Shown: piece after piece, positions 5,942-31,029 of the stretch
How positions within the stretch are numbered: position 1 is the stretch's first letter
How the letters are laid out: every line of letters starts with the position of its first letter
NCBI GenBank assembly: GCA_030744755.1
Contig: JASLPY010000004.1
Location: forward strand, 1 to 64,000
DNA length: 64,000 nt
Direction of reading: 5' to 3'
Source of the DNA: Kiritimatiellia bacterium
GTDB taxonomy: Bacteria > Verrucomicrobiota > Kiritimatiellia > UBA8416 > JADHWI01
Made by a program: the position numbers and the translations under genes
Notes under the pieces: model-generated
Database searches by the model: none
What the model was told of the DNA's origin: nothing
The model's input: only the letters and a program-made list of their open reading frames with translations

Positions 5942-6057
5942 GGGAACATTTCGCTTATACTGACGGCCTTTTGCAAGAAATTTCGGATCATTCTCTGGTT
6001 GACGTTGCCCGGAACCCGTCAAGCCGGAAGGAATGAAAGAACGGAGGGAACGGAACG

Positions 6058-6591
6058 GTGTTGATAAATATTCTTCTTCTTACGTTAATCACCTTTATAC
6101 CGGCGCTTGAGCTTCGCGCCTCTATCCCCATGGGCATTCTCCCAATACCGATACCTTTCCTTGAGCGGACGATTAATCAGGACATGTCCTGGTTGACCGT
6201 GGTGGTTGTCTGCGTAATCGCGAATGTAGTATTGGGTGCCATGGTGTTCGTTATTCTCGGTCCTGCATTCACTTTCATTCGCAAATGGGGTTGGTTTGAC
6301 AAGAGAATATGGCCCATCCTCGAACGCACGCGGCACAAGATCCATCCGTATGTCGAGAAGTACGGGGAATTCGGTGTTGCCGTGTTCATCGGCATTCCGC
6401 TGCCGGGGTCCGGCGTCTATACCGGTGCCTTCGGTGCGTACCTGCTGGGTTTGGACAGGAAGAAGTTCATGATCGCGAACGTTCTGGGGGTGTTAATTGC
6501 CGCTGTCGCAGTTACTGCTTTGAGCATGTGCATTCTCAAGGGTGCGGTAGGCGACGACAGCTTCCTTGCGCGACTCTTCCTGAAGCACTGA
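6058..6591 (+). CDS. Small COG2426-type membrane protein (putative small multidrug export family)
   Basis: A 177-residue integral membrane protein with four or more hydrophobic segments. The motifs ELRASIPMGI near the N terminus, a VEKYGEFGVAVFIGIPLPGSG segment in the middle and GAFGAYLLGLDRKKF after it identify the COG2426 / Sm_multidrug_ex family. The family is related to DedA-like half-hairpin transporters; substrate is not known, despite the historical name. The start is GTG at 6058 with GGAGG about 10 nt upstream. It is transcribed away from the glycosyltransferase and probably stands alone. Confidence 0.85.
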   Translation: MLINILLLTLITFIPALELRASIPMGILPIPIPFLERTINQDMSWLTVVVVCVIANVVLGAMVFVILGPAFTFIRKWGWFDKRIWPILERTRHKIHPYVEKYGEFGVAVFIGIPLPGSGVYTGAFGAYLLGLDRKKFMIANVLGVLIAAVAVTALSMCILKGAVGDDSFLARLFLKH

Positions 6592-6792
6592 TCCGCGAGG
6601 ACATCATGACGCAGGCATCTTGTCTGATTTATGATCAGCCGGGACGGCCGATCTACTGGGAGTAGAGCTGGCCTCCGGCCTGCTTTCCAGATACCACGAA
6701 CACCATTTAGTGCCAGATGGCCTTGCTGAGAAGTGGGCCATACGTTAGTCTACTCGCTCTGATGCACGGAATCTTTAGGAAAGGAAGGTAGT

Positions 6793-8127
6793 ATGAATCG
6801 TCGTGAATTCTTGAAAACTGCGGGTGTAGGGGCTGCTGCGTTTGCGGCATTGCCGAACATTGGTATTACCTGGGCGGACGTCCCATCACGCCAGGGAAAG
6901 ATCATCAAGGACCGCAAAATCAACATGGCCTGCATCGGTATTGGCGGGAAGGGGTCCTCCGACGTACGCAGCGTCAGCGGAGAGAACATCGTTGCTCTTT
7001 GTGACGTGGATTTGGGAAGGGGAAAGGGGTCGTTCAAGTCCCACCCGAATGCCAAACAGTACAAGGATTTCAGGAAAATGCTGATCGAGCTGGATGACCA
7101 GATCGATGCAGTGACGGTCAGTACGCCTGACCATATGCATTTCCCGGCAGCCATGATGGCAGTGAAGATGGGCAAGCATGTTTTCGTTCAGAAACCCATG
7201 ACGCACACAGTCGAGGAGGCCCGCGTTCTTACCGAGGCCGCAAGGAAACACAAAGTGGCCACCCAGATGGGAATCCAGGGCCATTCGGGTGATGGAATCA
7301 GGCGAATGCGCGAGTGGATGGCGGTCAAGGCTATTGGTGACGTGAAAGAACTTCACATCTGGACAAACAGGCCGATATGGCCCCAGGGAGTCAAGGAGCC
7401 GCTGCCAAAGGCCGAGATTCCTGCGAACCTGGACTGGAACCTGTGGCAGGGCGTGGCCCCGGAGCGCGAATACGGAAGAGGTTATCTCCCGTTCAACTGG
7501 CGCGGCTGGTGGGACTACGGCTGTGGCGCCCTCGGTGACATCGGCTGCCACGCACTCGACTGCGCATTTGATGTTCTGAAACTCGGCAGTCCGGAAAGCG
7601 TTGAAGCCGTTAGTGATCAAATCAACGATCAGACGGGCCCCAAGTGGTCGATCGTAACCTACCAGTTCGGTGCCACAAAGGATCGCGGACCGATCAAACT
7701 CGTATGGTACGATGGTAACAAGAAGCCCGAACGTCCGAAGGATCTTGAAGATAACAGGAAGATCCCCGGCGGCATAGGCGGGCAGCTCTGGTACGGCACC
7801 GAAGGCACAATCATGGTAAGTGACGTTTACTGCGCATCGTCGAGGATCATCCCCGAAGCGAAGATGCAGGACTTCATAAAGAACAGAATGCCGGAGAAGA
7901 CGGAGAAGAAATCGGTAGGGCATGTGAGAGAATGGCTCGACGCGATCAGGGGCGGTGCGCCGGCAGGTGCCAACTTCGACTTCGCCGGTCCCCTGTCCGA
8001 AATGGTTCTCCTCGGAAACCTGGCCGTTCGCACGGGCAAAAAGGTTGAGTGGGATGCAGAGAACCTGAAATGCACGAATCTGCCCGAAGCCAACAAGTTC
8101 GTGAGGAAAGACTACAGGGTTTACTAG
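6793..8127 (+). CDS. Tat-exported Gfo/Idh/MocA-family oxidoreductase (1)
   Basis: A 444-residue protein with a twin-arginine signal (NRREFLKTAGVGAAAFAAL), so it is folded with its cofactor before export. GIGGKG near residue 50 is the nucleotide-binding turn, and STPDHMHFPAAM followed by HVFVQKPMTHT is the family's NAD(P)-binding EKP region, here with Gln in place of Glu. The C-terminal half is the alpha/beta substrate domain. Such enzymes act on sugars or inositols; the export signal and the neighbours suggest periplasmic glycan catabolism, but the substrate is unknown. AAAGGAAGG is well placed before ATG 6793. A 390-bp fold-back repeat follows. Confidence 0.9.
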   Translation: MNRREFLKTAGVGAAAFAALPNIGITWADVPSRQGKIIKDRKINMACIGIGGKGSSDVRSVSGENIVALCDVDLGRGKGSFKSHPNAKQYKDFRKMLIELDDQIDAVTVSTPDHMHFPAAMMAVKMGKHVFVQKPMTHTVEEARVLTEAARKHKVATQMGIQGHSGDGIRRMREWMAVKAIGDVKELHIWTNRPIWPQGVKEPLPKAEIPANLDWNLWQGVAPEREYGRGYLPFNWRGWWDYGCGALGDIGCHALDCAFDVLKLGSPESVEAVSDQINDQTGPKWSIVTYQFGATKDRGPIKLVWYDGNKKPERPKDLEDNRKIPGGIGGQLWYGTEGTIMVSDVYCASSRIIPEAKMQDFIKNRMPEKTEKKSVGHVREWLDAIRGGAPAGANFDFAGPLSEMVLLGNLAVRTGKKVEWDAENLKCTNLPEANKFVRKDYRVY

Positions 8128-8630
8128 TCTTTCTCAAAGCTCTGTCATGACTACGGCCTGAAAGGCCGAGACATACCAGCCCAGGGCAACATCCTCGTTG
8201 TTCCACACATTTCTTGATTGTCATGCTCTCGGGGCAAGCCGGAGGCTTGTCAGCGATTAGCCGGTGGTTGATTCCGCGGAGCGGGAGATACCACCGGTCA
8301 ACGGAGATATGAATTGCATCCCGAAGGGATGCCAGCATTGGGTGATACGCGACCGAGTGGGGGAGTCGCTGCCATCCCTCCGGGATGGTTGATGCTCTCG
8401 CCACGAAGTCCGGTGGTGGCGCGCGTTCCTCGCGCAACCACCGGCTAATGGCTGGCAGGCCTCCGGCCTGGCGCAACGTTACAACGGGCAAGAAGAGATG
8501 TGTAGAACCACGAGGATAACGCCCTTGGCTGGTGTGTGACGCGCTTTCAGTGCTATCGACAATCCGATGCCGCAAGGAAAGCGGAATCCCGGAGTGCCAC
8601 CATCAACGCCAAGCTAGGAGATCACCGCGC
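8128..8630. other. Intergenic region filled by a fold-back repeat
   Basis: No gene seen. Nearly all of this stretch is the inverted-repeat element at 8158-8550. It lies between two convergent genes, so termination could use its hairpins, although there is no T-tract. Confidence 0.7.
8158..8550. repeat. About 390-bp fold-back (MITE-like) element with nested inverted repeats
   Basis: Outer imperfect inverted repeat: 8158-8216 pairs with 8489-8550, beginning CTGAAAGGCC and ending CTTTCAG. Inner inverted repeat: 8234-8270 pairs with 8435-8472, with four mismatches and one gap by eye, each arm containing the palindrome (A)AGCCGGAGGCTT or its GGCCTCCGGCCT variant. Innermost hairpins are GCATCCCGAAGGGATGC (8316-8332) and CCATCCCTCCGGGATGG (8372-8388). 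No transposase gene is inside. Sequences of this kind are typical non-autonomous repeats of PVC genomes. Confidence 0.75.
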
Positions 8631-11237
8631 CTATTCCTTGCTGCCCTGCTTGAACTGGGCGAGGTATTTTTCGCGCGCTTCCACCACCCATCGCTCGGCG
8701 CCGCCCATTGCCCAGGTCGGTTCCCAGCCGTTGATATTCTCGTTGTTCTTGCGCTGGATGCAGGCCTTTACCAGGTCAGCCATCTTCTTGTACTTCGGAT
8801 CGTTCCTGTCCTTGTAGCCCTTGATCTGTCCCCAGCCGCCGGCTTTCTCCGGCAGGGGCATCATCAGGATTCTGCTTTCGTCCGTTTGGACGAGGTTCAC
8901 GAGGGCATATTCCGGCTGAGCGGCTACTTCCTCACCGAACAGCTCCTTGACGTAAGCTCTCAGCGCGGTGAGACCAGCGCCATTGAAGCGCCGTTCTTCA
9001 AGTTTGTTCGGGAACATGTCGCCGTAGCACTGACCGTTCAGATCGAGCCACTCTATGATCCGCATATAGCTTTCACGGTCGACCTCGGAGAGCTTAGGAT
9101 GGTTCTTGTCGCCGTTCAGCAGCAGATGCGCAACCTTGTTCTCATAGGCATAGAACTTGCGCGGCCGGCTTATGTTGTAATTGACATCCGTTCCTTTGTA
9201 CCTGCCGTTCATGTACCCCTTGTCGCCTACCCTGTGCTGCCCTCTCTTGACGATCTCGGACAGTGACTTCGGGTAGCGGCCGTTATCATATATCAGGTTT
9301 ATGCTCTTACCCTTCTCATCCTTGCCCAGCCCATGGCATTCAACACAGTACCTGTCCAGCACGGGCTGGACCGTCCTGACAAAACTCATGCCACCTTTGT
9401 ACTGGGGACCGGCAGCGGGTCTCAGGTCCATGGGCTTTTTTCTGCGAAGCTTGGCTACGGACCGCATGTCGGGCGTCGTCCCCACGGCTTCATGACACCC
9501 GATGCAGCTTCTCTGCTCTCCGGGCTGGAGATAGAACAGGCTCTTCTCGGTCAGTAACGCCATGCCGTTTTCATCAAGGGACTGAACCTGTACAGAAACG
9601 TTGGCCGGAATCCTGAAGGTTGCCGAACCGTTCTCGTCCACGGGAACCGTGCCAAGCACTTTCTTCGGTATGTCGTTCGGCACCGTCATCGTGACCGACA
9701 TACGGCTAGCACGAGGCTGGACGCCAAGCGCGTTAATGCGGATCGCCTTGATCATACCGGGCTTGATGATGCCCTCGGGATCGTTGCGGGTCAGGTAGGC
9801 GTTCTGGAGAAACACCGTGCCGTAAGGTTCGGCCTTGGGCGGTATCATTGCGGGGAGAGCCGGGGGGGTCGGCCTGACCCTGATGGGAATAGGCGATACG
9901 GTTGCCACCTCCGGGTCTTCATAGATCTTCTCGCGTCCGCCGAAGGAGTCGATCATGTAGATCGCTCTATCCGCCACTGGAGGCGTCTGGCCCTGCTTGT
10001 GAACTCTGTGATTGGCTCTCGATGCGAGGAATATGTCTTCCGTGAGTGGAAACGGGTGACTGTAATGCGGTTCGGGCCAGCCCTTTGTTTCGGAATATGG
10101 CGTCTCAGGCGTGATGTGCTTGATGGCATGCTCGCCGTTTTCGTCGATATTAGTATCCAGCACCACGGTCGTTCCCGTGTTGTAACTGTGATGGCCCTGT
10201 GCAGTGCACACTACCTTGTGGCTGCCGGGGATGGCCGTTGCTTCAACAAACTGGTGGGGAATGACCATATCGTTGCCGAAGAAATGCGTGACTGCCGTTC
10301 CGTCGGGACGACACCACCACAACTTGTGAAAATACATCTCGTGCCTGTTGGTGTATTCCCAGCGCATAAAAACAATTCTACCGTCGTTCAGAACGGCTGG
10401 TTCGGCCTCGTTCTCGTTGCCGAAAGACAACTGCGTGATGTTGTTTCCGTCCTTGTCGCATTTGTGGAGTATCCATGCAGGATTATACCTGCCGCCGTGG
10501 CAGCGTCCGAACGACTGTCCGCGTGAAGAGATGAAGACGATCTCACCACTTGGCAGGTAACAGGGATCGTTGTCCTCGATCAATACTGTTGCACGACCGT
10601 CCCATGTCTTAAAGTCATCGCGCTTGGTTCCCGTCAACTGACGAACCCACGAACCATCGATCGCTGCTTCGTAAAGGAAATATCGACGCAGTTTCGCGTC
10701 TTTCTCGGTATGATCGCAAAAGGCAAACACCACCCTTTTTCCATCATAGCTCAAGTCGGGATTGCGCACGGCACCAGGAGGCAGCTTGCCTTCCAGGATG
10801 TTACTCACCTCCGGTTCGCCGTTCTTCCATCCGGTCAAAATCCCCATGCCCTTGCCTATGCGGCTGTGACGCCCCAGGTGCTGATCCCCGTTGTGGCTGT
10901 ATTTGGTCGGAGGATTGCGGTTTATGAGTATGCTGTCGAAATTGACACTGGGGTGCCTGGTGAGAACAGCAAGGCGCAGCTTCTTCATGTCGGCGTAAAC
11001 GGCGGCACAGTTGTTAGGGTCGTCAGGCGACGCGTTCAACTTATCGGTAAGCTTGTCCAGCATTTCCAGTGCACGGGCAACCGATGGGGTCGCCTTGCTG
11101 ACGTAATCAATCGCATCGTTAAGACCCTTGGCGTATTCAGCCACTTTATTCTTGTCAACCGGCTTGGAATCAGCGGCAACTAATGCAGTCGCTGACAACG
11201 CAAAAACAAGTAGGATTGAGAGTGCTTTCATAGACAT
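8631..11237 (-). CDS. HzsA-like di-heme propeller protein (1)
   Basis: An 868-residue exported protein. After the signal peptide (MSMKALSILLVFALSATALV) comes a helical region, then a TolB-like propeller with blades such as NPDLSYDGKRVVFAF and EPAVLNDGRIVFMRW. Then come the mid domain named after the hydrazine synthase alpha subunit and two c-type haem sites, CIGCH at 578-582 and CVECH at 631-635. In anammox bacteria HzsA belongs to hydrazine synthase, but no partner subunits occur here. Relatives are widespread in PVC bacteria and probably do periplasmic electron transfer or polymer oxidation. ATG 11237 is chosen because AAAGGTAAT precedes it; upstream residues look non-coding. Confidence 0.8.
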   Translation of the reverse strand: MSMKALSILLVFALSATALVAADSKPVDKNKVAEYAKGLNDAIDYVSKATPSVARALEMLDKLTDKLNASPDDPNNCAAVYADMKKLRLAVLTRHPSVNFDSILINRNPPTKYSHNGDQHLGRHSRIGKGMGILTGWKNGEPEVSNILEGKLPPGAVRNPDLSYDGKRVVFAFCDHTEKDAKLRRYFLYEAAIDGSWVRQLTGTKRDDFKTWDGRATVLIEDNDPCYLPSGEIVFISSRGQSFGRCHGGRYNPAWILHKCDKDGNNITQLSFGNENEAEPAVLNDGRIVFMRWEYTNRHEMYFHKLWWCRPDGTAVTHFFGNDMVIPHQFVEATAIPGSHKVVCTAQGHHSYNTGTTVVLDTNIDENGEHAIKHITPETPYSETKGWPEPHYSHPFPLTEDIFLASRANHRVHKQGQTPPVADRAIYMIDSFGGREKIYEDPEVATVSPIPIRVRPTPPALPAMIPPKAEPYGTVFLQNAYLTRNDPEGIIKPGMIKAIRINALGVQPRASRMSVTMTVPNDIPKKVLGTVPVDENGSATFRIPANVSVQVQSLDENGMALLTEKSLFYLQPGEQRSCIGCHEAVGTTPDMRSVAKLRRKKPMDLRPAAGPQYKGGMSFVRTVQPVLDRYCVECHGLGKDEKGKSINLIYDNGRYPKSLSEIVKRGQHRVGDKGYMNGRYKGTDVNYNISRPRKFYAYENKVAHLLLNGDKNHPKLSEVDRESYMRIIEWLDLNGQCYGDMFPNKLEERRFNGAGLTALRAYVKELFGEEVAAQPEYALVNLVQTDESRILMMPLPEKAGGWGQIKGYKDRNDPKYKKMADLVKACIQRKNNENINGWEPTWAMGGAERWVVEAREKYLAQFKQGSKE

Positions 11238-19243: not shown

Positions 19244-19498
19244 CTGGTGACCTGGGAAACGGGTCACCATTAACCATTGACGTTTCTGCCTTCGTGCACT
19301 TATGTATACAGGTCGCCGCATGGGCGTGTACGGGAGTATGCGGCTCGGCGAGTTAGGAGTTTCGGTATCGATCCGCCTCTGGTGGTAAAAGCAGCTATAT
19401 ATGAAAGCAATTACGCTGAACGTCTTGTTACGAGTGCTGTTGGTACGGATATTGCATTATTATGCCAACAATCTTGTCAATTCCGGGAGAGGGTGTCT

Positions 19499-22400
19499 TT
19501 GAGGTCCGTGTGCGTCCATAAACTGCTTGTTGCCTTAACTGTTTGTGTTCTGCTTGTCAGTTCGATGGTCGCCGGCGCCCAGGAGAAGCTTGATAAGGCT
19601 TCCGAGAAGTTCTACAGCGGCAACGCGCTTTACAACAAACGCCTGTATTCTCTTGCTATAAAAGAATACCTCGCCTATCTCCAGGAGTTCCCCAAGCATT
19701 CCAAGGTTGAACAGGCACGTCTCGGGGTTGCGTTGTGTCTTTACGCTCAGAAGAAATGGCCGGAAGCGGAAAAAGAAATAACGAATGTACTGCAGCGCCG
19801 CAAGGCCGGTGACCCGGATAAACTGGGCCTGATGCTTGCCCAATGCATGATCAATCTGAAGCGTCCAGCCGATGCCCGCAAGGCCTTCGCCCCTGTGACC
19901 CGGTCCAAGAATGCCGAGTTCAGAACCACGGCCATGGCCGCTATCACCGAGTCATGGTTCAAGGAGCAGAACTGGGAAGAGGTGGCAAAATCTTCCGCCG
20001 TTCTACTGAAAGCAAATCCGGCCGATAAGCTCAAACTGCGGGGCCTTTACCAGGGATCCTACGCTCAATTCCAGCTTGGGGCCTATGCCGAGGCTATTCC
20101 GTTGCTGCTCGAGCTGGTGCCGCTGGCCAAGGGCGGGGCGTATGAATCGCAGTGCGCTTTCATTCTTGCGGAGTGCTATCGTGAGACCGGCGATCTTGCC
20201 AAGGCCACGGAGGCCTACGAGGCCGCGGGCACCGGACTCACGGGTGAGACGGCTGCGGAAGTCGCTTATCGGTTGGGACTAGTGAACTTCCAGAAGGCGA
20301 ATTACGATGACGCAGTGAAGGGGCTTGAGAAGTCCATCAAGCTCAGTCCGGACGGGGAGTTTTCCGATCCGTCCCGCCTGCTTCTCGGTCGCGCCTATCT
20401 TGAAAAACAGGACTACAGGAAGGCCGAGCAGCATCTGCGGTCATTGAGCCAGCGCTCTGATGAGGAGCGAAAGAAAAAGAAGAAGAAACTCAGGGAGGGG
20501 CTGGTCTTTTCGGATGCGCGTGCCGCTTTCTGGTATGCACGGGTCTTCTCGCGTCAGAAAAAGTATGCCCAAGCGGAGCAGGTTCTCGCCGTGGCTGTCA
20601 AACAGTTTGCGCGTGATCCGCTGTCCATGGACCTGCAGTATGACTATGTGAACGCCCTGATGGTCAATGAGAAATACAAAGAGGCAGCGGGCGTTCTGGG
20701 TAGCATATTCCGTTATAAACACGACAAGGACTATGCCCAGCGTTCGGACCTCCTGCGGTTCTATGCCGAATGCCTGCACCGCAACAAGGACTACGCCAAC
20801 AGCCTGAAGTACGCCGACGAGTATCTTGCCGCTTACGGCAAAGAGAAACATGTGGGCGATATCAAGTTTCTTAAGGCAGAGAATCTGAATCTCATGGCAA
20901 AGATTGACGAGGCACTTCCCGTTTACGAGGAAGTCTTTTCCAAGTACAAAGATAACAAGAATGTAGAGACTGCCCGTTTCCGGGCTGCCCAGATTCATCG
21001 TCGCAAGGGTGACTCCGCAAAGGTGAGCGGACTGATGGTGGAATTGCAGACGAAAGCGCCGGAGGGAGCGGTATTCAGCCAGGTAAAATTCGTTGCGGGT
21101 GACGCGGCTTTCCGCCAGAGAAAATGGGCCGAAGCAGTTGTCCACCTGAACGCCTTCGTCGATCAGCACATGAAAGACCGACGCAGGCCCTCTGCAGAAC
21201 CGAACCTGGATGCCGCGTTTGTCCAGATGGCCGTCAGCAGCCTTAACCTTCAGAAGGTCGACGATGCCGCAGGCTATTTTGAGCAGGTGATAAAACTGTT
21301 TCCCGAAAGCCCGCACCGCCCGCTGGCACTCGCCGAGCTCGGGCGAATCCAATATGAAAAGGGCGACCACAGCAAAGCAAAGTCAACGCTCTCGCATTAC
21401 GTACAGTCCAAGCTCAAGAAGACGACCCTTAACGCCCAGGTGGACTACTACCTCGGCTGGATAGCCATGCAGGAAAAACGCTTGCCCGAAGCGGAGAAGC
21501 ATTTTCACACGGTCGTACATCAGCATCGTGCGCACGAGCTGGCTCCGGATGCCGCCATTCAGCTTGGACGCGCGTGTCTGGAGCAGGAGAAGTACAGGGA
21601 GGCGGCAGCAGCATACAGCGACCTGATAAAGAACTGGCCGGCGCACCCGCGTATGGACCTGGCCGTGTTTTCCCTGGGTATATCCTATGCCCGAAGGAAA
21701 GACTGGAGGAACGCGGCCACTCATTTTGCAGCGGTCGACGAAAAGCACTCAAAGTCTGAAGTCGCCGACCGTGCCCTGTACGAACTGGCATGGTGTGCGA
21801 AGGGCGTGAAGAAGAACGACGAGGCGGTTCTGCACTATAAGAAATTGATAGAAAAACATCCCGGGAGCAGCCTGGTTGAGAAGGTCCGCACCGAGCTGGC
21901 GGAACTGACGTTTGCCAAGGCCGACTATGACGCCGTGATTGCAGAGCTCAAGGATACGCTTGATAAGCTGACGGACCCGAAGCTGAAAGAGGAAACGACG
22001 TACCGACTGGGTACAGCCTATTTCAACAAGGCGGATTACGAAAATGCCGCGAATACGTTCGAGGCTTTCATTGCCCAGTACGAGAAGTCACCCAAGCTGG
22101 CCTCTGTGTGTTTTCACGCCGGTGAGGCACGCATGAGGCTGAAGGAGACTGTCAAGGCGCGGGACCATTTTACCGAGGCCCACAAGCGTAACCAGCAGGT
22201 GGAAATGCGCGAATCGATCCAGCTGCGCCTGGCCGAAACCCAAAGGCTGACACGCAAGTACAAGGACTCCATGAATACCTACAGGGATTTCATCCAGAAA
22301 TTCCCGGAAAGCAAATGGCTGGCACAGGCACATTTTGACCACGGCTGGTGCATCGAGAAGCAGAAGGACTATAACCGCGCCTCCGTGGAATACCGCAAGG

Positions 22401-22702
22401 TCATTGCCATGGGTAAACGGGATGAACTGGCTGCCCGCAGTCAATTCCAGCTGGGCGAATGTCTTTTTGCTATGAAGAAGTATGACGATGCTATCCAGGA
22501 ACTGATAAAGGTGACCGTTGCCTACTCTCATAAGAAATGGCAGGCTAGGGCGGCATTGGAAATCGGACGCGCACTAGAAGCCTTGGGCGAGAAAGATAAG
22601 GCGCTGGAGCAGTTCAAAGAAGTCATGAAGAAATATCCCAAGGAACAGACCATTGTTGATTCGGCCCGCAGGCATGTGAGTATTCTGCGTCACGGCAAGT
22701 AG
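19499..22702 (+). CDS. Large exported TPR scaffold protein of the ExbB/ExbD operon
   Basis: A 1067-residue protein with a signal peptide (HKLLVALTVCVLLVSSMVAG, then AQ) followed by TPR or Sel1-like helical repeats along its whole length, roughly 25 units, such as ALYNKRLYSLAIKEYLAYL, AAYRLGLVNFQKANYDDA-like and QFQLGECLFAMKKYDDAIQE. It resembles periplasmic YbgF/CpoB-type TPR proteins that work with Tol-Pal systems, but is far longer. TTG 19499 is chosen because GGGAGAGG lies about 7 nt upstream and it begins the signal peptide; GTG 19493 is an alternative. First gene of a five-gene operon; it probably scaffolds the complex in the periplasm. Confidence 0.8.
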   Translation: MRSVCVHKLLVALTVCVLLVSSMVAGAQEKLDKASEKFYSGNALYNKRLYSLAIKEYLAYLQEFPKHSKVEQARLGVALCLYAQKKWPEAEKEITNVLQRRKAGDPDKLGLMLAQCMINLKRPADARKAFAPVTRSKNAEFRTTAMAAITESWFKEQNWEEVAKSSAVLLKANPADKLKLRGLYQGSYAQFQLGAYAEAIPLLLELVPLAKGGAYESQCAFILAECYRETGDLAKATEAYEAAGTGLTGETAAEVAYRLGLVNFQKANYDDAVKGLEKSIKLSPDGEFSDPSRLLLGRAYLEKQDYRKAEQHLRSLSQRSDEERKKKKKKLREGLVFSDARAAFWYARVFSRQKKYAQAEQVLAVAVKQFARDPLSMDLQYDYVNALMVNEKYKEAAGVLGSIFRYKHDKDYAQRSDLLRFYAECLHRNKDYANSLKYADEYLAAYGKEKHVGDIKFLKAENLNLMAKIDEALPVYEEVFSKYKDNKNVETARFRAAQIHRRKGDSAKVSGLMVELQTKAPEGAVFSQVKFVAGDAAFRQRKWAEAVVHLNAFVDQHMKDRRRPSAEPNLDAAFVQMAVSSLNLQKVDDAAGYFEQVIKLFPESPHRPLALAELGRIQYEKGDHSKAKSTLSHYVQSKLKKTTLNAQVDYYLGWIAMQEKRLPEAEKHFHTVVHQHRAHELAPDAAIQLGRACLEQEKYREAAAAYSDLIKNWPAHPRMDLAVFSLGISYARRKDWRNAATHFAAVDEKHSKSEVADRALYELAWCAKGVKKNDEAVLHYKKLIEKHPGSSLVEKVRTELAELTFAKADYDAVIAELKDTLDKLTDPKLKEETTYRLGTAYFNKADYENAANTFEAFIAQYEKSPKLASVCFHAGEARMRLKETVKARDHFTEAHKRNQQVEMRESIQLRLAETQRLTRKYKDSMNTYRDFIQKFPESKWLAQAHFDHGWCIEKQKDYNRASVEYRKVIAMGKRDELAARSQFQLGECLFAMKKYDDAIQELIKVTVAYSHKKWQARAALEIGRALEALGEKDKALEQFKEVMKKYPKEQTIVDSARRHVSILRHGK

Positions 22703-22750
22703 GTGGGCTGTTGCCGGATAATTGTAATTAGAAAGAAGGGGAGAAAAAGA

Positions 22751-23491
22751 ATGAGAAGCAACTTGAGGTACAAGCTGGGGACGCTGCATTGTTTTGTAAT
22801 GGGCATTATGGCCTGCGGCAACGCATGGGCAGCGCCGGTTACCGGTCCCGCGGTCGGCGAAGAAACGATGTTCGATCTGCTTTGGAAGGGCGGCCCCGTT
22901 ATGATTCCCCTGGGGCTGGGCTCCGTGCTCGCGGTAGCGATCATGATCGAACGCTTTATATCGCTGCGCCGCGAGCGTGTGATCCCCCCGGATTTCATCG
23001 ATACACTCGCTTCCACAAGAAAGGGCGATACTTCCGCGGCCAAAGCCATTGCTTTCTGTGAGGAAACGGGCGGGGCGGTTGGCAAGATCTTCAAGGCCGG
23101 CCTGCAGCGCCTGGGCAAAGGCGAAGAGGCGGTGGAAAAGGCAATCGAGGACGCCGGCTACCGCGAGGCAGACAAGTTAAAACGATCGCTGCGCGGACTT
23201 TCGATTATCGCAACGGTATCGCCGCTGCTGGGCCTGCTGGGAACGGTGTACGGTATGATTGAGGCTTTCCAGACGGCATCTTCTATCGGCATGGGCAAGT
23301 CTGACGTTCTTGCAAAAGGCATTTACGAAGCGCTGGTCACTACCGCAACGGGTTTGACGATCGCTATTCCGGTACTGCTGGTCTACCAGTTCTTGTCCGG
23401 AAAAGTAGACGGCATTGTTGACGATCTTGACGAGATGGGAATGGACTTCATGCTCAGTTGCGCTGATGAAGCCGAAGCGGCAGGGAGCTGA
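22751..23491 (+). CDS. exbB: MotA/TolQ/ExbB-family proton channel subunit
   Basis: A 246-residue protein with three membrane segments. MIPLGLGSVLAVAIMIERFI is the first helix with its E-R pair, and VSPLLGLLGTVYGMIEAFQT is the family signature in the second. The third helix follows ALVTTATGLTIAIPVLLVYQ. A signal-peptide-like N terminus (residues 1-28, ending AWAA) precedes the first helix, as in many PVC ExbB proteins. It forms a pentameric proton-motive-force motor with ExbD. AAGGGGAG is 8 nt before ATG 22751. ExbD starts 1 base after the stop. Confidence 0.93.
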   Translation: MRSNLRYKLGTLHCFVMGIMACGNAWAAPVTGPAVGEETMFDLLWKGGPVMIPLGLGSVLAVAIMIERFISLRRERVIPPDFIDTLASTRKGDTSAAKAIAFCEETGGAVGKIFKAGLQRLGKGEEAVEKAIEDAGYREADKLKRSLRGLSIIATVSPLLGLLGTVYGMIEAFQTASSIGMGKSDVLAKGIYEALVTTATGLTIAIPVLLVYQFLSGKVDGIVDDLDEMGMDFMLSCADEAEAAGS

Positions 23492-23492
23492 T

Positions 23493-23906
23493 ATGAGAAT
23501 TCGTCGCCAGAACACAGATAGCGAAGAAATCATCAACATGTCTTCGCTTCTGGATGTAATGTTCATTCTGATCATCTTCTTCCTGGCCACGACCACGTTC
23601 AAGGAACAGGAGGTCGATGAGGCGGTCAATCTCCCTGTCCAGGCCAAGGGAGAAGCGTTGTCGGCAGACAACCAGCTTATCGTAATCAACGTGCGCAAAA
23701 GTGGCACCTACGTGCTCATGGATCAGCAGGTCACCGTCGAGGAGATGGATGGGATGATACGTGAGGCCCTCACAGAGAACCCGGAGATGAAGGTTCTTGT
23801 TCGCGCCGATCAGGAGGCCCTGCACGGATGGGTTGCCCAGGCGATTGCCATCTGTCGCAACGCAGGGGTGCTGAAGGCCAATATCGGCTATAAACTGCTT
23901 AACTGA
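23493..23906 (+). CDS. exbD: ExbD/TolR-family motor subunit
   Basis: A 137-residue protein with one N-terminal membrane helix (INMSSLLDVMFILIIFFLAT). Asp21 is the conserved residue that carries protons in ExbD/TolR. The periplasmic domain (about 50-137) has the usual strands, for example LIVINVRKSGTYVLMDQQV and MKVLVRADQEALHGWV. Only one ExbD is present, whereas many planctomycete operons have two. GGGAG precedes ATG 23493. It is followed after 8 bases by the first toroid protein, so all are one transcript. Confidence 0.93.
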   Translation: MRIRRQNTDSEEIINMSSLLDVMFILIIFFLATTTFKEQEVDEAVNLPVQAKGEALSADNQLIVINVRKSGTYVLMDQQVTVEEMDGMIREALTENPEMKVLVRADQEALHGWVAQAIAICRNAGVLKANIGYKLLN

Positions 23907-23914
23907 GAACGACC

Positions 23915-26323
23915 ATGTCAGATAAAGACATACGGACGGAAGAGAATAAGGCGATGCCTGATCCTGAGACCAAGGCAGAGGCCCCGGTCCCCGCGCCGCC
24001 CAGTTTCTGGAAGCGCCACAAGAAGAGAATCATCATCATCTCTTCTTCTATCCTCGTAACCGCCATCCTGGCCTGGCTCTACCTGTATCTTCAGCCGACT
24101 ACGTGGCATTACTACACGGACGAGACCACGTTCAAGCAGCTGGCCAAGGACGTGGAGCCCCGCTTCGTCGCCTGGGAGAATGCAGAACCCGTTAAGGGAG
24201 CAATGGCAGTTTCTACCGATGTGCACGATTCGGCCATCTCTCCCGATGGTGTCCACCTGGTGTACACCGCCGGTGAAAGCAACGGGAATGCAGACCTGTT
24301 CATCTCCCGATGGGAAGATTCCGGATGGGGCGAGAGCGAGCCGATGCGCGCCCTGAACAGTGGCTTTAACGAGAAGGCGCCTGTCTTTACCAGCGACGGC
24401 AAGTTTCTGTATTTCACCACCGACCGGCCTGGCGGGCCTGGCGGGTTCGACATATGGGTGTCGCGGTTTGACGGGGCTAACTTTGCGTGGCCCGTGCCGC
24501 TGACGAAAATGGTCAACTCAGCGTTTGACGATATCGACCCTGCGGTTACGCCGGAGCACGATAAGCTGTACTTTTCATCAAAGCGTCCCGCACGTGAACT
24601 TGATGCGGAAGAATCGAAGATGGCGTCTATTGAGCTGCGCGAGCGTTTCAGCGACCTGGATTATGATGTTTATGTCGCCGATCGCATTCCTGCAGGCGTG
24701 ACGAATCGCGAAGTCGAACGCGCGATGAGTATGCTGTATTACCTGAGGGAGTCCGCGCTGAGCGAGACGAACACAATGGCGATTCTCGGAGGTACCCGTG
24801 AAACCGAGGCGGCCGTTGACAAGGCGCTTGAATGGTTGGCAGCCAACCAGGATACAAACGGTTTCTGGGACATCCAGAAACACGGTGGCCAGGGCGGTCA
24901 CAATGTGGCCTCATCGGGATTCGCCTTGCTGGCTTTCCTGGGGCGAGGGGAAACGCACAAGAAGGAATGCAAGTACCGGGACGTCGTCAAGCGGGGCCTC
25001 GAATGGATGATTACCCAACAGGATCCATTTGGCCGCCTTAAAGGCAACGGGTATGACCATGGTATTGGATCGCTAGCCCTGGCAGAGGCCTACGGCGTGA
25101 CCAAGGACCAGGACTGGATATACGGTCCGGCCCAGTCCGCGGTGGATTCCATTGTTGATACCCAGCACCTTGAAGGTGGCGGCTGGCGGTACAAACCGGG
25201 AGAGAAAGGTGACCTATCGGTATCGGGCTGGATGATCATGGCTTTGAAGAGCGCCGAATTGTCAGGGATTACGGTTCCCCGCCTGACCTATGATGGTGTT
25301 CGCAAATGGCTTGACTCCGTGTCTGGCGGCAAACGGGGCGGTATGTACTCATACCAGCCGAGCGGGGGGAGTTCGGGCAACGCCATGATTGCTACGGGAT
25401 ACTTCTGTAGCCAGCTGATGGGGCTTTCGCCAAATACATGGAGAAGTTTCGAGACATCCACCCATCTGAACAAGGCAGGTGTTGCTTCTGCTGACCTCTA
25501 CTATGCCTACTACGGCACGCTCTCAGCCTACCAGGGCCAGGGCCCCGTTTGGGATGAATGGAGGAAGCAATTACACGAAATCTTTCTGAAGCAGCAACAG
25601 GCGGATGGCTCATGGCCTCCACAGGGCGGGGACAGCCATGGTCGAAACATGGGGACCGTAATCACCACGGCATTGGTAACCTTGTCCCTGCAAGCCCATT
25701 ACCGCTATACGCCGCTCTACGGGCTGGGATTCAAACCCGAGCCGGGAACCGAGCGCCTGTCGAAACAGAACCTGGACGATTTGCCGGAAGTTCCGCTGTA
25801 TCGCCGGGCCAAGCAGAAGCCCGACTTCAGTTCTCCCAAGGACGACGTGCAGCTGTCGCTGACTTCTCACGGCGATTTTCTGTACCTGGCATCCGACCGG
25901 GATGGCGGTCTCGGAGGCTTCGATATATACCGTCACCGCATTACCGGAGTTGAGCCTGGTGAAGCCCAGCAACTCGGCCCGGAGATCAACAGCGAGGCGG
26001 ACGAAACAGCGCCTGCGACTCGTATGGCAGGCTTCAACCTCACCTTCAGTTCAAACCGCGGCGAGGGCGAATCCGGCAAGTACCGGCTGCACAGTGCCAT
26101 GAGCCGCCAGGTATATCGGCGTCACAGCTTCTCGGGAATACCACCACCATCCTACATCTGGGAGACGTTCCAGAAGCGGCTGATGTTCCTTGTTGTCGGC
26201 ATCCTCTTTCTGATCTGGTTCACGCGAATTGCCATGCGTCCCGCCAAGGCGGGAAAGCCGCCAACGGAGCCGGCCGATAATGCCGTCCAGGACGCCTCAA
26301 CGGAGGGTGATTCAAATGTCTGA
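23915..26323 (+). CDS. Membrane protein: PD40 propeller interrupted by prenyltransferase-like alpha/alpha toroid (1)
   Basis: An 802-residue protein. Membrane helices lie at about 38-60 and 756-776, with a large extracytoplasmic body between. PD40/WD40-like blades (AISPDGVHLVYTAG, PVFTSDGKFLYFTTDR, AVTPEHDKLYFSSKR) cover about 100-240. A prenyltransferase/squalene-oxidase-repeat toroid (about 285-605) follows, with GGGWRYKPG and DGSWPPQGG turns. The blades then resume (FLYLASDRDGGLGGFDIY). I see no DxDD, so squalene-hopene cyclase chemistry is unlikely. It may bind peptidoglycan, lipid or protein. The next gene overlaps its last 8 bases. Confidence 0.8.
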   Translation: MSDKDIRTEENKAMPDPETKAEAPVPAPPSFWKRHKKRIIIISSSILVTAILAWLYLYLQPTTWHYYTDETTFKQLAKDVEPRFVAWENAEPVKGAMAVSTDVHDSAISPDGVHLVYTAGESNGNADLFISRWEDSGWGESEPMRALNSGFNEKAPVFTSDGKFLYFTTDRPGGPGGFDIWVSRFDGANFAWPVPLTKMVNSAFDDIDPAVTPEHDKLYFSSKRPARELDAEESKMASIELRERFSDLDYDVYVADRIPAGVTNREVERAMSMLYYLRESALSETNTMAILGGTRETEAAVDKALEWLAANQDTNGFWDIQKHGGQGGHNVASSGFALLAFLGRGETHKKECKYRDVVKRGLEWMITQQDPFGRLKGNGYDHGIGSLALAEAYGVTKDQDWIYGPAQSAVDSIVDTQHLEGGGWRYKPGEKGDLSVSGWMIMALKSAELSGITVPRLTYDGVRKWLDSVSGGKRGGMYSYQPSGGSSGNAMIATGYFCSQLMGLSPNTWRSFETSTHLNKAGVASADLYYAYYGTLSAYQGQGPVWDEWRKQLHEIFLKQQQADGSWPPQGGDSHGRNMGTVITTALVTLSLQAHYRYTPLYGLGFKPEPGTERLSKQNLDDLPEVPLYRRAKQKPDFSSPKDDVQLSLTSHGDFLYLASDRDGGLGGFDIYRHRITGVEPGEAQQLGPEINSEADETAPATRMAGFNLTFSSNRGEGESGKYRLHSAMSRQVYRRHSFSGIPPPSYIWETFQKRLMFLVVGILFLIWFTRIAMRPAKAGKPPTEPADNAVQDASTEGDSNV

Positions 26324-29300
26324 TGCCAATCGTACATCTGAACGTCTTCCCACGGCCGAAAACGGGACTCAACCAGCTTCGGCTACACCGAAGAAGGCGT
26401 TGCGCGGTAATCGCTGGCGCTGGCTGCTGGTGATTCTGCCTGCGCTGGTGGTACTGGGGCTGATGCTCAACATCTTCTTCCAGCTAAAAAACACGGTCTG
26501 GAGCTACTATACCGACGACGCGGACATCAACTTCGCCTATGGTGAGCGAGAGCTGCGCATGGCGCTGTGGGAAGACCCGTACCTGACGCCGGCCACGTTC
26601 AATACGAACACTATACCCACGGAAACCGCTTTCTCGCCGGACGGGGCAACGATGGTTGCAACGAGGGCCGATGCGGAGAGCGGCGAGCTCAACCTCTTCC
26701 TCAGCACATGGGACGGTTCCAGCTGGAGTACCGGGACGCTCATGCAGGCTATCTGCAGTTCCGATGCGACGGATACCGATCCATCGTGGTCGGAAGACGG
26801 ACGCACATTGTATTTCGCATCCGATCGCGAAGGTGGTTTGGGCGGGTTTGACATCTGGGCCACGCAGAGGAAAGAAGGAGAGTGGGGCCCGGTCACCAAC
26901 CTGGGTTCGGCTGTTAATTCCAAGGCAGATGACTACGAGCCTGCCATTTCCCCGGATGACGCCAGGTTATACCTGACTTCAGATCGCAGCGGTGATCTGC
27001 GCGTATACGCGGCTGTCAAGAAGCAGGTACCTGAGACCACTAACGCCGTGCCGCTTGAATTCGCGGCAGCAGAAGCCTTTGCCACACTGAATTCCGTAGA
27101 GGCAGGTTCCCAGGTTACCTGGTCTCCTTCCGGAGACAGGGTTTACACGGTTTCAGACAAGGAGGGTGGTCAAGGCGGTTACGACATCTACTCCACTCGC
27201 GTGCTTAAAGGGGAGTTCGTCGATACAAAGAATGCCGGGCTCGAGTTCAACACTCCTGCTGATGAGCTTTCGCCGTCCGTGCGCTGGCAGGGCTTCGACA
27301 TGGTGTTCAGTTCGACTCGTCGAGCCTATACAGAAGAGATCGATCAAGAAGACCCGGAAAGCATGCTGTACTCCACAACCTCCCGCGAGGTCGTGAGCGC
27401 CCTGGACCTGTCCCGCTGGGAACGCCTGATGAACCTGCTTGACCGAATCAAGTGGTGGCTACTGGGACTGTTGCTGGCGCTGATAATTCTGATATGGCTG
27501 CTCTTGCATTGGCGCAATCTGTCGGGCCTGTTCCAGAAATGTCTCCTGGCTTCTGTGATCTTCCATGTGATTCTGCTCGTGATATTCTTCTTCACACAAA
27601 TAATGATCGAGATCAGCGAATCCAGGGATCCCGAATCCACGGAAGTCTCCATGAACATTGACAACCTGGCCAAGGAGAAGCTGGCCCTGGACATGGCAGA
27701 GCAGGTGACCGAATTACCAGAGGCCCCGGTAACTGTTCCCCTTGAGCAGATTGTTGAAGCGGTGCCGATACCGAAATTCACTCCGAAAACAACACCGGTC
27801 ACCGAACCAATAGTGACAAAAACCACGGATGAATCGTTCGTTGTAAAGGTTACTCCTTCCGTTGCGCAGGAGAAGGTTGTTGACGTGGCTGCCGCCAAGG
27901 CTTTCGAGGTACTTCCCGAACTGGATATGCCGGAGCTGGAGGTCGAGCTTACCGAGTTTGTGCCGCAAGACACACTGGATGAAGCAGATGTTCAGAAGAC
28001 ATTTGAGCCCACCGTGGTTCAGCAGGAAGTCCAGGTCAAGAAGCGTGAACACAAGAAACCGCAGATGACAGCGGTGACCAGAACCGCCGACGTGTCGGAC
28101 GTTGACAGCGATGCAAAGGACAACGCTGCGGCTGCCACCATCAAGGACACCGGGGGAGACGTTATCGTGGCATCAGCCGGCATGGAAGCGCCTGGGTCGC
28201 TTCCCAAGCTGACGGGCACGGGCGATCTGATTGGATTGATGATCAAGTCTCCCGGCACCGGCTCGGAGCTCAAAATCAATGCACCAGGCAAGCTGGACGT
28301 GCCTTCGTCGATCGGCGCAACCATATCCCCCGACATCCTCAAGAATCCTGGCAAGCTTTCCCTGGAAACGATCGAGGGACTGGGTGGTAACGCGGCCACG
28401 CAGGGAGCCATCGCGCGTGCACTGGACTGGTTTACGAAACACCAGGAATCGGACGGCCGCTGGGATGTCAAGAAGCACGGCGGTGTGCAGCAGCACGATA
28501 TCGCCGGAACCTCGCTGGCGTTGCTCTGCTATTACGGCTGGGGAGCCAAGCACAACGAAGCTGGACCTTACCAGGCTACCGTCAAACGGGCTATCGATTG
28601 GCTGGTGGCTCAGCAGAAAGAAAATGGCAGCTTTATGGGTGCGGCCAACAACGGCATGTACGATCACGGTATGGCCACAATCGCTATCTGCGAAGCCTTC
28701 GGCGTGACAAAGGATCCGGTACTCAAAGAGCCCGCTGCTAAAGCAGTTGCATTTCTTGAGAAGGCCCAGGATGCCAAGGCCGGAGGTTGGCGCTACAGTC
28801 CGAACAGCGGCAGTGACACTTCTGTGTTCGGTTGGCAGTACATGGGGCTGAAGAGTGCCGAACTGGCAGGGATAGACGTGTCGCCGCTGGTTCTTGCGAA
28901 TGCAGATAAGTGGCTTGATAAAGTTGGCGGAGGAAAACAGGGTGGTCTGTATGGTTACCAGAACCCCGGCGGCAATCAGAAAGCCATGATTCCCACGGGC
29001 ATGTTCTGCCGGCAGTTGGCAAAGGTACCTCCTGCAGATCCACGCATGAAAGAAGGCGCTGACTTCATGAGAATGCGCCCGATAGCGAACAAGAACATCG
29101 ATTATTACTATCTCTACTACGGAACACTCGCGTTGTACCAGCACCAGGGCAAAGTCTGGGAAGACTGGAACACGCGCATGAAAGAGATCCTTCCCGAGAT
29201 CCAGGAAAAGACCGGTGCTGATGCCGGAAGCTGGGCCCCCGGCGGCGCCAACCATGGTAACTCGATGGGCAAAGTGGTAACAACCGGAATAGCAACACTC

Positions 29301-29363
29301 TCGCTCGAGGTCTACTACCGGATTCTCCCGATCTACGGCTTCCGAGACGCCGAGGAAGAATAG
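26316..29363 (+). CDS. TonB-like membrane protein with PD40 propeller and C-terminal prenyltransferase-like toroid (2)
   Basis: A 1015-residue protein. Helix 1 is at about 36-56, a PD40 propeller at about 100-350 (YFASDREGGLGGFDIW, LYLTSDRSGD) and helix 2 at about 380-398. Helix 3, about 408-430, contains SVIFH (Ser413, His417), the Ser-x3-His spacing of the TonB transmembrane helix. A Pro/Val/Thr-rich linker of about 230 residues follows (VPIPKFTPKTTPVTEPIVT), then a toroid (about 690-1010) paralogous to that of the preceding protein (WDVKKHGG against WDIQKHGG). TonB's own C-terminal domain is absent. With ExbB and ExbD in the same operon, it is probably the energised output subunit. GGAGGG precedes ATG 26316. 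Confidence 0.8.
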   Translation: MSDANRTSERLPTAENGTQPASATPKKALRGNRWRWLLVILPALVVLGLMLNIFFQLKNTVWSYYTDDADINFAYGERELRMALWEDPYLTPATFNTNTIPTETAFSPDGATMVATRADAESGELNLFLSTWDGSSWSTGTLMQAICSSDATDTDPSWSEDGRTLYFASDREGGLGGFDIWATQRKEGEWGPVTNLGSAVNSKADDYEPAISPDDARLYLTSDRSGDLRVYAAVKKQVPETTNAVPLEFAAAEAFATLNSVEAGSQVTWSPSGDRVYTVSDKEGGQGGYDIYSTRVLKGEFVDTKNAGLEFNTPADELSPSVRWQGFDMVFSSTRRAYTEEIDQEDPESMLYSTTSREVVSALDLSRWERLMNLLDRIKWWLLGLLLALIILIWLLLHWRNLSGLFQKCLLASVIFHVILLVIFFFTQIMIEISESRDPESTEVSMNIDNLAKEKLALDMAEQVTELPEAPVTVPLEQIVEAVPIPKFTPKTTPVTEPIVTKTTDESFVVKVTPSVAQEKVVDVAAAKAFEVLPELDMPELEVELTEFVPQDTLDEADVQKTFEPTVVQQEVQVKKREHKKPQMTAVTRTADVSDVDSDAKDNAAAATIKDTGGDVIVASAGMEAPGSLPKLTGTGDLIGLMIKSPGTGSELKINAPGKLDVPSSIGATISPDILKNPGKLSLETIEGLGGNAATQGAIARALDWFTKHQESDGRWDVKKHGGVQQHDIAGTSLALLCYYGWGAKHNEAGPYQATVKRAIDWLVAQQKENGSFMGAANNGMYDHGMATIAICEAFGVTKDPVLKEPAAKAVAFLEKAQDAKAGGWRYSPNSGSDTSVFGWQYMGLKSAELAGIDVSPLVLANADKWLDKVGGGKQGGLYGYQNPGGNQKAMIPTGMFCRQLAKVPPADPRMKEGADFMRMRPIANKNIDYYYLYYGTLALYQHQGKVWEDWNTRMKEILPEIQEKTGADAGSWAPGGANHGNSMGKVVTTGIATLSLEVYYRILPIYGFRDAEEE

Positions 29364-29392: not shown

Positions 29393-29441
29393 CTTCTGCG
29401 CTACCACGAGCCGGCGGTCTTGCAGTGTGCTTGGGAAGGGA

Positions 29442-29492
29442 CCTCTCGGAGATAGGGCCCTACTTCTCCAGTACATGCCTATCTCCGAGAGG
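29442..29492. repeat. Perfect 13-bp inverted repeat upstream of the patatin gene
   Basis: CCTCTCGGAGATA (29442-29454) and its exact complement TATCTCCGAGAGG (29480-29492) are separated by 25 bases. The position, 70 bases before the patatin start, would fit an operator or a leader hairpin. I see no second copy in the window. Confidence 0.5.
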
Positions 29493-29562
29493 CATGATTC
29501 CAGGTGGATCTCCATTGGCAAGCTGCCCACCGGATATCCTTGCGTTTTCTAAGAAGAAATCT

Positions 29563-31029
29563 ATGATTCTTCCATCCATGCGTAATCTGCACAGATTGAT
29601 CGTCTCAAGTGCCTGCCTGCTGCTCCTCACGGGATGTGCATCATACCGCAACAAGAACCTGGACCACCGCCTCCAGGTTTTTGAATCACCGGAGCTGCGA
29701 TTGAAAGGCGTCAAGAACGTACAATCGCGCGAGGGGCAGAACCCCGACATTGCCCTGGCACTCGCAATCTCCGGTGGGGGACACCGTGCCGCAAATTTCG
29801 CTACAGGCATACTGCTGGGTATGGAGTCCACGCCTCTTCCCGGGTCCGGCCGCGACATGCTGCAAGAAGTTGACTACTTCTCAACTGTTTCCGGCGGTGG
29901 ATTCGCCTCGGGAGCATATCTCGCTGCCCTGCATGACCACATAAAGAGTAACAGCTCTGAGGACTTCAGCTTGCGCGAAGCACTTCTCGCGAACAAGGAA
30001 CGGGGGCTCTACAACCTTCGACGTGATTACCAGACAAGCATGCTTGTCCAGTGGATCCATCCTTCCTGTTTCGGGTACCGGGATGCCGGCAATCTCATGG
30101 AAAGACGTTTCGATCACTATCTTCTCGGGTCCAAGTACCGCTCCGATGGGAGCAGCCTGCTCTTGGGCGATATCTTCAAGCGGGCCAGTTCGCCCGATCC
30201 GGTACGCCTCCCGTACTGGATAGCCAACGCCACCGTATACGAGAACGGTGCCCGTTTCATGTTCGCTCCTGAATTCATCGCGCATTACCGAATCGACCGC
30301 TATACGCACAAGATGCGGTATCACAACTTGAAGGGAGATCCCCTGTCATTGCCTGCCGCTGTGGGGATGAAAGCCAGCGCGTCGTTTCCCGTTCTCTTTC
30401 CCGCCACAACGTTTACCTGCACCCCGGAGGAGGATAAACTCAACCCATACCTGCATCTCATTGACGGTGGAATGACTGACAACACCGGAGTGAAGACGGC
30501 GCTTGAGCTACTTCGAAACGATGCTGCCCCACGCAAGATACTTTTGGTCATTGATGCATATGCAAAGAATGCTCATCCGTACTCGTCATACAGGACATCG
30601 CCGGACGGTGCCGGTGTTGCATTCAGGATCATGAAGATAGGCCTCGACGCAGAGCACCTGCGTTTGCGGAAAGAGGTGTCGCGGCAAGCTTCCGAGAATA
30701 GTATTGAAGTTCGCTTCCTGGGATTTGATCAACTGAAACCGGTTTTGCAGGAGAGCATCTCAGACTTGAAAACGGAGATCGCCGCGATGCGCAAAGAGCG
30801 CACCGAGGCACTCAGTCGACGCCTGCGCAGAGAGATGGACTGGGCACTCCGCAAGAAACGGCTCGAACTCGAAACTGTTGAATCAGAATCAGAGAATCTC
30901 TACGAAGATGCCCGAAACGTGGCCACCACCTTGAGCATCACAAAAGCGGAGCAGTCAGTCCTCCTGAAAACGGGACAGGCGGTTATCAACAGAAACAAGT
31001 CGGACCTGACCGACCTCCTGAAACCGTAA
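29563..31029 (+). CDS. Patatin-like phospholipase lipoprotein
   Basis: A 488-residue lipoprotein: the lipobox LTGC (Cys25) ends the signal peptide. SGGGHRAANFATGIL at about 70-84 is the patatin oxyanion loop, TVSGG with Ser110 the nucleophile elbow (first Gly of GxSxG replaced by Thr), and DGGMTDNTG with Asp301 the dyad partner. It should hydrolyse acyl esters at the cell envelope. The C-terminal 130 residues are helical and charged (AAMRKERTEALSRRLRREMD), possibly coiled coil. ATG 29563 has AAGAAG upstream; 29578 is an alternative. It is 200 bases downstream of the toroid operon on the same strand, so a link is possible but unproven. Confidence 0.85.
   Translation: MILPSMRNLHRLIVSSACLLLLTGCASYRNKNLDHRLQVFESPELRLKGVKNVQSREGQNPDIALALAISGGGHRAANFATGILLGMESTPLPGSGRDMLQEVDYFSTVSGGGFASGAYLAALHDHIKSNSSEDFSLREALLANKERGLYNLRRDYQTSMLVQWIHPSCFGYRDAGNLMERRFDHYLLGSKYRSDGSSLLLGDIFKRASSPDPVRLPYWIANATVYENGARFMFAPEFIAHYRIDRYTHKMRYHNLKGDPLSLPAAVGMKASASFPVLFPATTFTCTPEEDKLNPYLHLIDGGMTDNTGVKTALELLRNDAAPRKILLVIDAYAKNAHPYSSYRTSPDGAGVAFRIMKIGLDAEHLRLRKEVSRQASENSIEVRFLGFDQLKPVLQESISDLKTEIAAMRKERTEALSRRLRREMDWALRKKRLELETVESESENLYEDARNVATTLSITKAEQSVLLKTGQAVINRNKSDLTDLLKP

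Follow-up and report, generated by a model that had tools for sequence, protein, structure and literature searches.

Gene organization of the locus

The window (the entire 64,000-nucleotide stretch of Kiritimatiellia DNA analysed) contains an operon in the order TPR protein, ExbB, ExbD, first toroid protein (P0003) and transducer (P0002), the last two being adjacent (Table 1). In most related operons, exbB is likewise preceded by a homologue of the TPR protein gene. The nearest families of the window ExbB and ExbD are TolQ and TolR, respectively; in the alignment, ExbD retains the Asp of the pore and is hydrophobic close to the position of Escherichia coli Leu132. P0003 consists, judging from its translation, of a transmembrane segment (TM), a split PD40 propeller with the toroid inserted inside it and a C-terminal TM, and its translation contains no SxxxH helix. 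In one relative (L020), the two toroid proteins are joined as one chain. A gene for a patatin-like phospholipase (29425-31029; Pfam E 2.5e-9) lies directly 3' of the transducer gene.

Table 1. Operon genes and features of the transducer P0002, in window positions
Feature	Position	Strand	Basis or remark
TPR protein, first operon gene, signal peptide	19277..22702	+	Pfam TPR_6 E 3e-52; open frame, true start somewhat further 3'
ExbB/TolQ-type motor subunit	22748..23491	+	PF01618 E 3.3e-31; best NCBIfam match tolQ
ExbD/TolR-type motor subunit	23493..23906	+	PF02472 E 3.8e-23
P0003, first toroid protein	23915..26323	+	Pfam PD40 E 7.5e-20, SQHop_cyclase_C E 0.0018
P0002, transducer, 1015 aa, ATG at 26316	26316..29363	+	last operon gene, second of two adjacent toroid proteins
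TM1, aa 33-53	26412..26474	+	hydropathy
PD40/TolB-like beta-propeller, aa ~95-360	26598..27395	+	PF07676 E 6.7e-19
TM2, aa 378-397	27447..27506	+	hydropathy
TM3, TonB-like motor-docking helix (putative), aa 408-430	27537..27605	+	hydropathy, conservation
Cys409	27540..27542	+	third best conserved, 22/28
Ser413, equivalent of E. coli TonB Ser16	27552..27554	+	23 Ser, 5 Ala
His417, equivalent of E. coli TonB His20	27564..27566	+	invariant
D-box-like alternating strand VSMNID, aa 444-449, His+27	27645..27662	+	
V/T/A/E/K/P-rich long linker, aa 450-685	27663..28370	+	
C-terminal alpha/alpha toroid, aa 688-1005	28377..29330	+	PF13243 (SQHop_cyclase_C) E 2.5e-7, above Pfam cut-off

P0002 has a positive-inside topology, by which its propeller is placed in the periplasm, and a short basic loop precedes TM3, as is also the case in TonB. 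TM3 (KCLLASVIFHVILLVIFFFTQIM; peak hydropathy, 2.74) includes the SVIFH segment that an earlier, sequence-only reading had likened to the helix of TonB, and the coordinates given there for Ser413-x3-His417 (codon 413 at nucleotide 27552) are correct. The match itself needs correction in three respects: it covers only the first half (Ser-His) of the SHLS motif, the helix is internal (the third TM), and Cys409 is part of the signature, which reads C409-x3-S413-x3-H417. We know of no TonB or TolA with an internal docking helix. The helix is followed by a linker of 236 residues, which is indeed long and rich in Pro, Val and Thr as had been described, its Pro content being 8.9% compared with 5.3% across the whole protein.

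Conservation of the third transmembrane helix

A search at the level of the order (31 genomes, together with L020, a relative labelled Phycisphaerales) yielded eight alignable sequences, the window included. In the alignment of the membrane module of these eight orthologues, Cys409, Ser413 and His417 are the sole invariant columns among 132, the mean column identity being 46%. More distant members were collected by profile searches of 388 genomes of the phylum (17 with a match) and 346 genomes of the class (18 with a match). His417 is the sole invariant column in an alignment of 21 sequences, and among 28 homologues His is present in 28, Ser in 23 (replaced by Ala in five) and Cys in 22, the Cys at His-8, one helical turn ahead of Ser413, thus being third best conserved. 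The exbB gene adjoins the transducer gene of these homologues wherever the contig reaches, and exbD was seen in nearly all. The expectation of the sequence-only reading that Ser and His should be the best conserved residues therefore holds, and free variation of the two in the presence of exbB and exbD was not seen, save for the five Ser-to-Ala replacements and a shortened helix in L123. The latter (4761-7730), a divergent homologue kept out of the count of 28, has a helix about 7 residues shorter, in which Cys and Ser are lost and His is kept; this change is either natural or an assembly error. An open frame of 11,395 aa at G007:C70 was rejected as a gene because it is a run of N. In E. coli, activity is abolished by TonB H20A and by TolA H22A (PMC10666116), and the order of conservation, His above Ser, fits these mutant results.

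The remainder of TM3 is less constrained: the Leu-Ser half of the SHLS motif is conserved neither in the window protein nor in its homologues in the alignment, F424 and Q428 of the window TM3 occupy positions that are variable among the homologues, and the helical periodicity of conservation is not significant (p 0.11). A profile of the TM module compared with PDB sequences gave no match to TonB or TolA, the helix being too short for sequence homology. A hydrophobic helix might also contain SxxxH by chance, since this pattern occurs in 31 of the 807 hydrophobic segments (~4%) of the loci examined, a figure that includes the transducers themselves; its near-invariance in aligned positions over many families and several classes contradicts this, and we consider the probability of such a coincidence negligible.

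Relationship of the helix to ExbB and ExbD

In the cryo-EM structures from E. coli, ExbB Ser34 and Trp38 are contacted by TonB Ser16/His20 and linked to Pro190 (PMC12215075). The window ExbB keeps the equivalents of E. coli ExbB Ser34, Thr148, Thr181 and Pro190 and has Val at the position of Trp38, which is not conserved in the alignment of these operons (Val or Leu instead). The E. coli ExbB and TolQ sequences used here match the PDB alignment over the part that it covers.

To the loci described above and others were added 40 ExbB regions sampled from genomes of the order irrespective of the motif, with the exclusion of three MotA-like proteins. In the resulting 72 ExbBs, a helix with [S/A]xxxH is encoded downstream of 40 of the 52 that have Ser34 and of none of the 20 that lack it. 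Within the motif-blind sample only, such a partner accompanies 13 of 23 ExbBs with Ser34 (one of the 13, L125, being doubtful) versus 0 of 14 without (p 3.5e-4). The 12 exceptions with Ser34 include L120, in which the transducer is encoded upstream, L130 and L159, which fall narrowly below the threshold, and L142 and L143, in which the helix retains His and carries Val instead of Ser. In the ExbB tree, Ser34 changes five times, and two well-supported independent pairs agree with the association or are neutral. With only these two supported pairs the sign test on Ser34 and the motif is not significant, so that the association points in the same direction while its independence from ancestry is unproven.

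ExbBs without Ser34 include those of two toroid-ExbB-ExbD operons of the same genome, C519 (L058) and C365 (L059), in which the toroid protein has one plain N-terminal TM and no SxxxH. These operons provide a useful internal contrast to that of the window.

The D-box of E. coli TonB, QPISVTMVTPAD (residues 43-54), is captured as a strand by the ExbD dimer (PMC10907165). In P0002, an alternating run within E-V-S-M-N-I-D begins at His+27, and in the same numbering Val47 and Met49 of E. coli TonB correspond to His+27 and His+29, respectively. The alternating pattern likewise begins at His+27 in many relatives, and the runs are longer than those of shuffled sequences (mean 4.5 versus 3.2), although they are short in most relatives in which no propeller was detected. 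Because of this weakness in the propeller-less relatives, the resemblance of the strand to an ExbD-binding D-box at the TonB spacing is regarded as suggestive. Taken together, the Ser-His half, the tracking with ExbB Ser34 and the D-box-like strand speak for the TonB-type motor-docking helix that had been proposed from the sequence, while the Leu-Ser half and the interaction partner ExbB Trp38, neither of which is conserved, speak against a complete correspondence.

The toroid domain

The Pfam assignment of the C-terminal domain bears out the earlier description of this domain as a toroid. No TonB_C domain (PF03544) was found in the genome at E 0.1 or in the Pfam scan of P0002, and the only Plug domain match in the genome lies in a 170-aa frame. 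An ordinary TonB energising outer-membrane receptors would account for the SxxxH helix, ExbB/ExbD, the linker and the one Plug-domain frame; the toroid C-terminus, the lack of TonB_C at that threshold and the short frame of the lone Plug match contradict it, making this a very improbable explanation. The Ser/His helix is tied to a toroid instead of the usual end of TonB, so that the target of the motor in this cell is probably not a nutrient receptor.

Modelled with AlphaFold2 from four sequences, the toroid takes the shape of an all-helical barrel (pLDDT 69, pTM 0.79), and the nearest solved folds are those of AprG, sugar epimerases, GH76 mannanases, squalene-hopene cyclase and complement thioester domains, with TM-scores of approximately 0.5-0.6. 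These PDB matches are (alpha/alpha)6 barrels. Enzymes and complement proteins are the best-known carriers of the toroid fold. No relevant report of a toroid next to ExbB/ExbD emerged from literature searches, in which subscription papers were mostly outside coverage.

Such matches to sugar-acting barrels and cyclases would be expected if the toroid were a sugar- or lipid-handling enzyme and docking to the motor only localised the protein or gated proton flow, with no force delivered to a target; a signalling or localisation role of the contact between the TonB helix and ExbB has been suggested by some (PMC12215075, PMC10907165). This is an unlikely explanation in our opinion: the cyclase catalytic motif DxDD is absent from the window transducer, the linkers measure 272-1250 residues, as expected of a spanning device, and other ends replace the toroid in relatives.

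Interchangeable ends in relatives and in the same genome

Three types of transducer were distinguished. Type I (the window protein and its kin) has the propeller, TM2, SxxxH, linker and toroid. Type II (L053, L054, L055, L087, L090, L091, L122 and probably L121) has SxxxH, a linker of 750-1250 residues where measured and the toroid, with no propeller detected; the toroid was found in seven of these eight relatives, L121 ending at a contig edge. Type III (nine relatives, L079-L086 and L089) has the propeller, TM2, [S/A]xxxH, linker and motor genes, with no toroid detected. Most Type III proteins possess a conserved C-terminal tail like DSELEVPEKY (P-x-D-S-E-x-E-V-P-E-x-Y), perhaps a binding peptide.

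Two further loci were identified in the genome of the window itself. L092 (C332; 8277-15200) encodes, directly 3' of a TPR-ExbB-ExbD trio homologous to that of the window, a protein of 2307 residues in which vWA and a TM helix with SxxxH are combined with a very long linker and a C-terminal DUF4159. L093 (C443:97 kb; 6060-9715) encodes ExbB, two ExbDs and a protein with an SIWTH helix and a C-terminal DUF4159, and a short upstream frame there also has an AxxxH TM helix. The toroid-less relatives and these DUF4159 proteins with SxxxH indicate that several ends, the toroid among them, can be exchanged for one another, and so weaken the case for the toroid ligand as the general load; since nine toroid-less relatives keep the propeller, the helix and the motor genes, the toroid is not the sole possible load.

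The load could instead be the propeller, in the manner of a fused TolA-TolB: the partner against which the docked hairpin moves the TolB-like propeller would be Pal-like or peptidoglycan, with the toroid as an accessory. The retention of propeller, TM2 and TM3 in the nine toroid-less relatives favours this arrangement, as do the affinity of the motor subunits to TolQ and TolR and the fact that the TolB repeat is PD40. TolB is also the first fold match of a model of the propeller plus helices, but the match is weak and carries little weight because that AlphaFold model is poor (pLDDT 47). Eight relatives, however, combine the SxxxH helix and a long linker with no detectable propeller, seven of them with a toroid, and the long linker is located on the toroid side, in the fashion of TonB. 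We therefore judge a propeller load improbable, to the same degree as a purely enzymatic toroid.

Proposed mechanism

We favour, with good confidence, the reading that P0002 is a proton-motive-force-driven envelope transducer of the TonB/TolA kind, in which TM3 docks to ExbB, the strand binds ExbD and the linker passes motion to a target-holding toroid. With its Ser-His face, TM3 would dock to the outer surface of the ExbB pentamer, and the periplasmic dimer of ExbD would capture the strand following TM3 as a D-box. The long linker would then relay motor movement to the toroid at the C-terminus, and the target held by this domain would lie in the periplasm or in the outer membrane. Positioning of the device, or reception of the force, is probably aided by the TPR partner and by the TolB-like propeller ahead of the membrane hairpin. 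Docking, the transfer of force and any target are what we infer from the conserved helix, the operon, the toroid and the exchange of ends seen in the sequences; that the motor moves the toroid is likewise a prediction, and the pull on a toroid ligand supposed in the earlier reading would be one possibility. Single-residue predictions follow for His417 and for ExbB Ser34, as well as for the D-box-like strand.

More broadly, P0002 may exemplify a class of PMF-driven, modular transducers of PVC-type bacteria, a generalization for which we see about even chances: a single hairpin that docks to the motor and includes an internal CxxxSxxxH helix would carry a propeller on one side and interchangeable ends (toroid, short conserved tail and, in paralogues, DUF4159) on the other, performing envelope work in cells with few or no classical TonB proteins. 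The toroid would thereby be added to the ends apparently driven by a TonB-type motor, and a docking helix can evidently sit inside a multi-helix, multi-domain protein.

Comparison with known systems

Squalene-hopene cyclases and prenyltransferases share with P0002 the alpha/alpha toroid with QxxDGxW repeats, but P0002 lacks the catalytic DxDD of the cyclase, and its toroid is fused to a motor helix and linker. The Tol-Pal system (TolQRAB, CpoB) resembles the locus in the TolQ/TolR-nearest motor, the PD40 propeller and the TPR partner; in P0002, however, the propeller is fused to the transducer, the TolA C-terminal domain is missing, and the TolB N-terminal domain (PF04052) was not found in the Pfam scan.

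With ExbBD-TonB, P0002 shares the SxxxH helix, ExbB/ExbD partners encoded nearby and an extended linker, and possibly a D-box-like strand at matching spacing. It differs in having no TonB_C, a longer linker and no Leu/Ser of SHLS, and its docking helix is the third of three TMs, whereas TonB has a single N-terminal anchor; E. coli TonB, in turn, has no counterpart of the conserved Cys409. The best reading is that P0002 works like TonB/TolA. It is not a member of the TonB family, given that it lacks TonB_C, has an internal docking helix and keeps only half of SHLS.

Force transducers with a vWA end and an SHLS helix have been described by Williams-Jones et al. in 2025 from PVC and other bacteria (PMC12204202), and they are the closest described class to P0002. 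The two have in common an SHLS-type helix (Ser and His shared, Leu and Ser not), a disordered linker, a C-terminal domain other than that of TonB, a TPR-tolQ-tolR neighbourhood and occurrence in PVC bacteria. They differ in the fold (vWA there, a C-terminal toroid in P0002), in the number of exbD genes (a pair there, one here) and in the position of the P0002 helix as the third TM after a propeller; the main text of that paper makes no mention of toroids or PD40. The present locus lends support to the proposal made in 2025 that still-undiscovered envelope systems are powered by ExbBD/TolQR motors.
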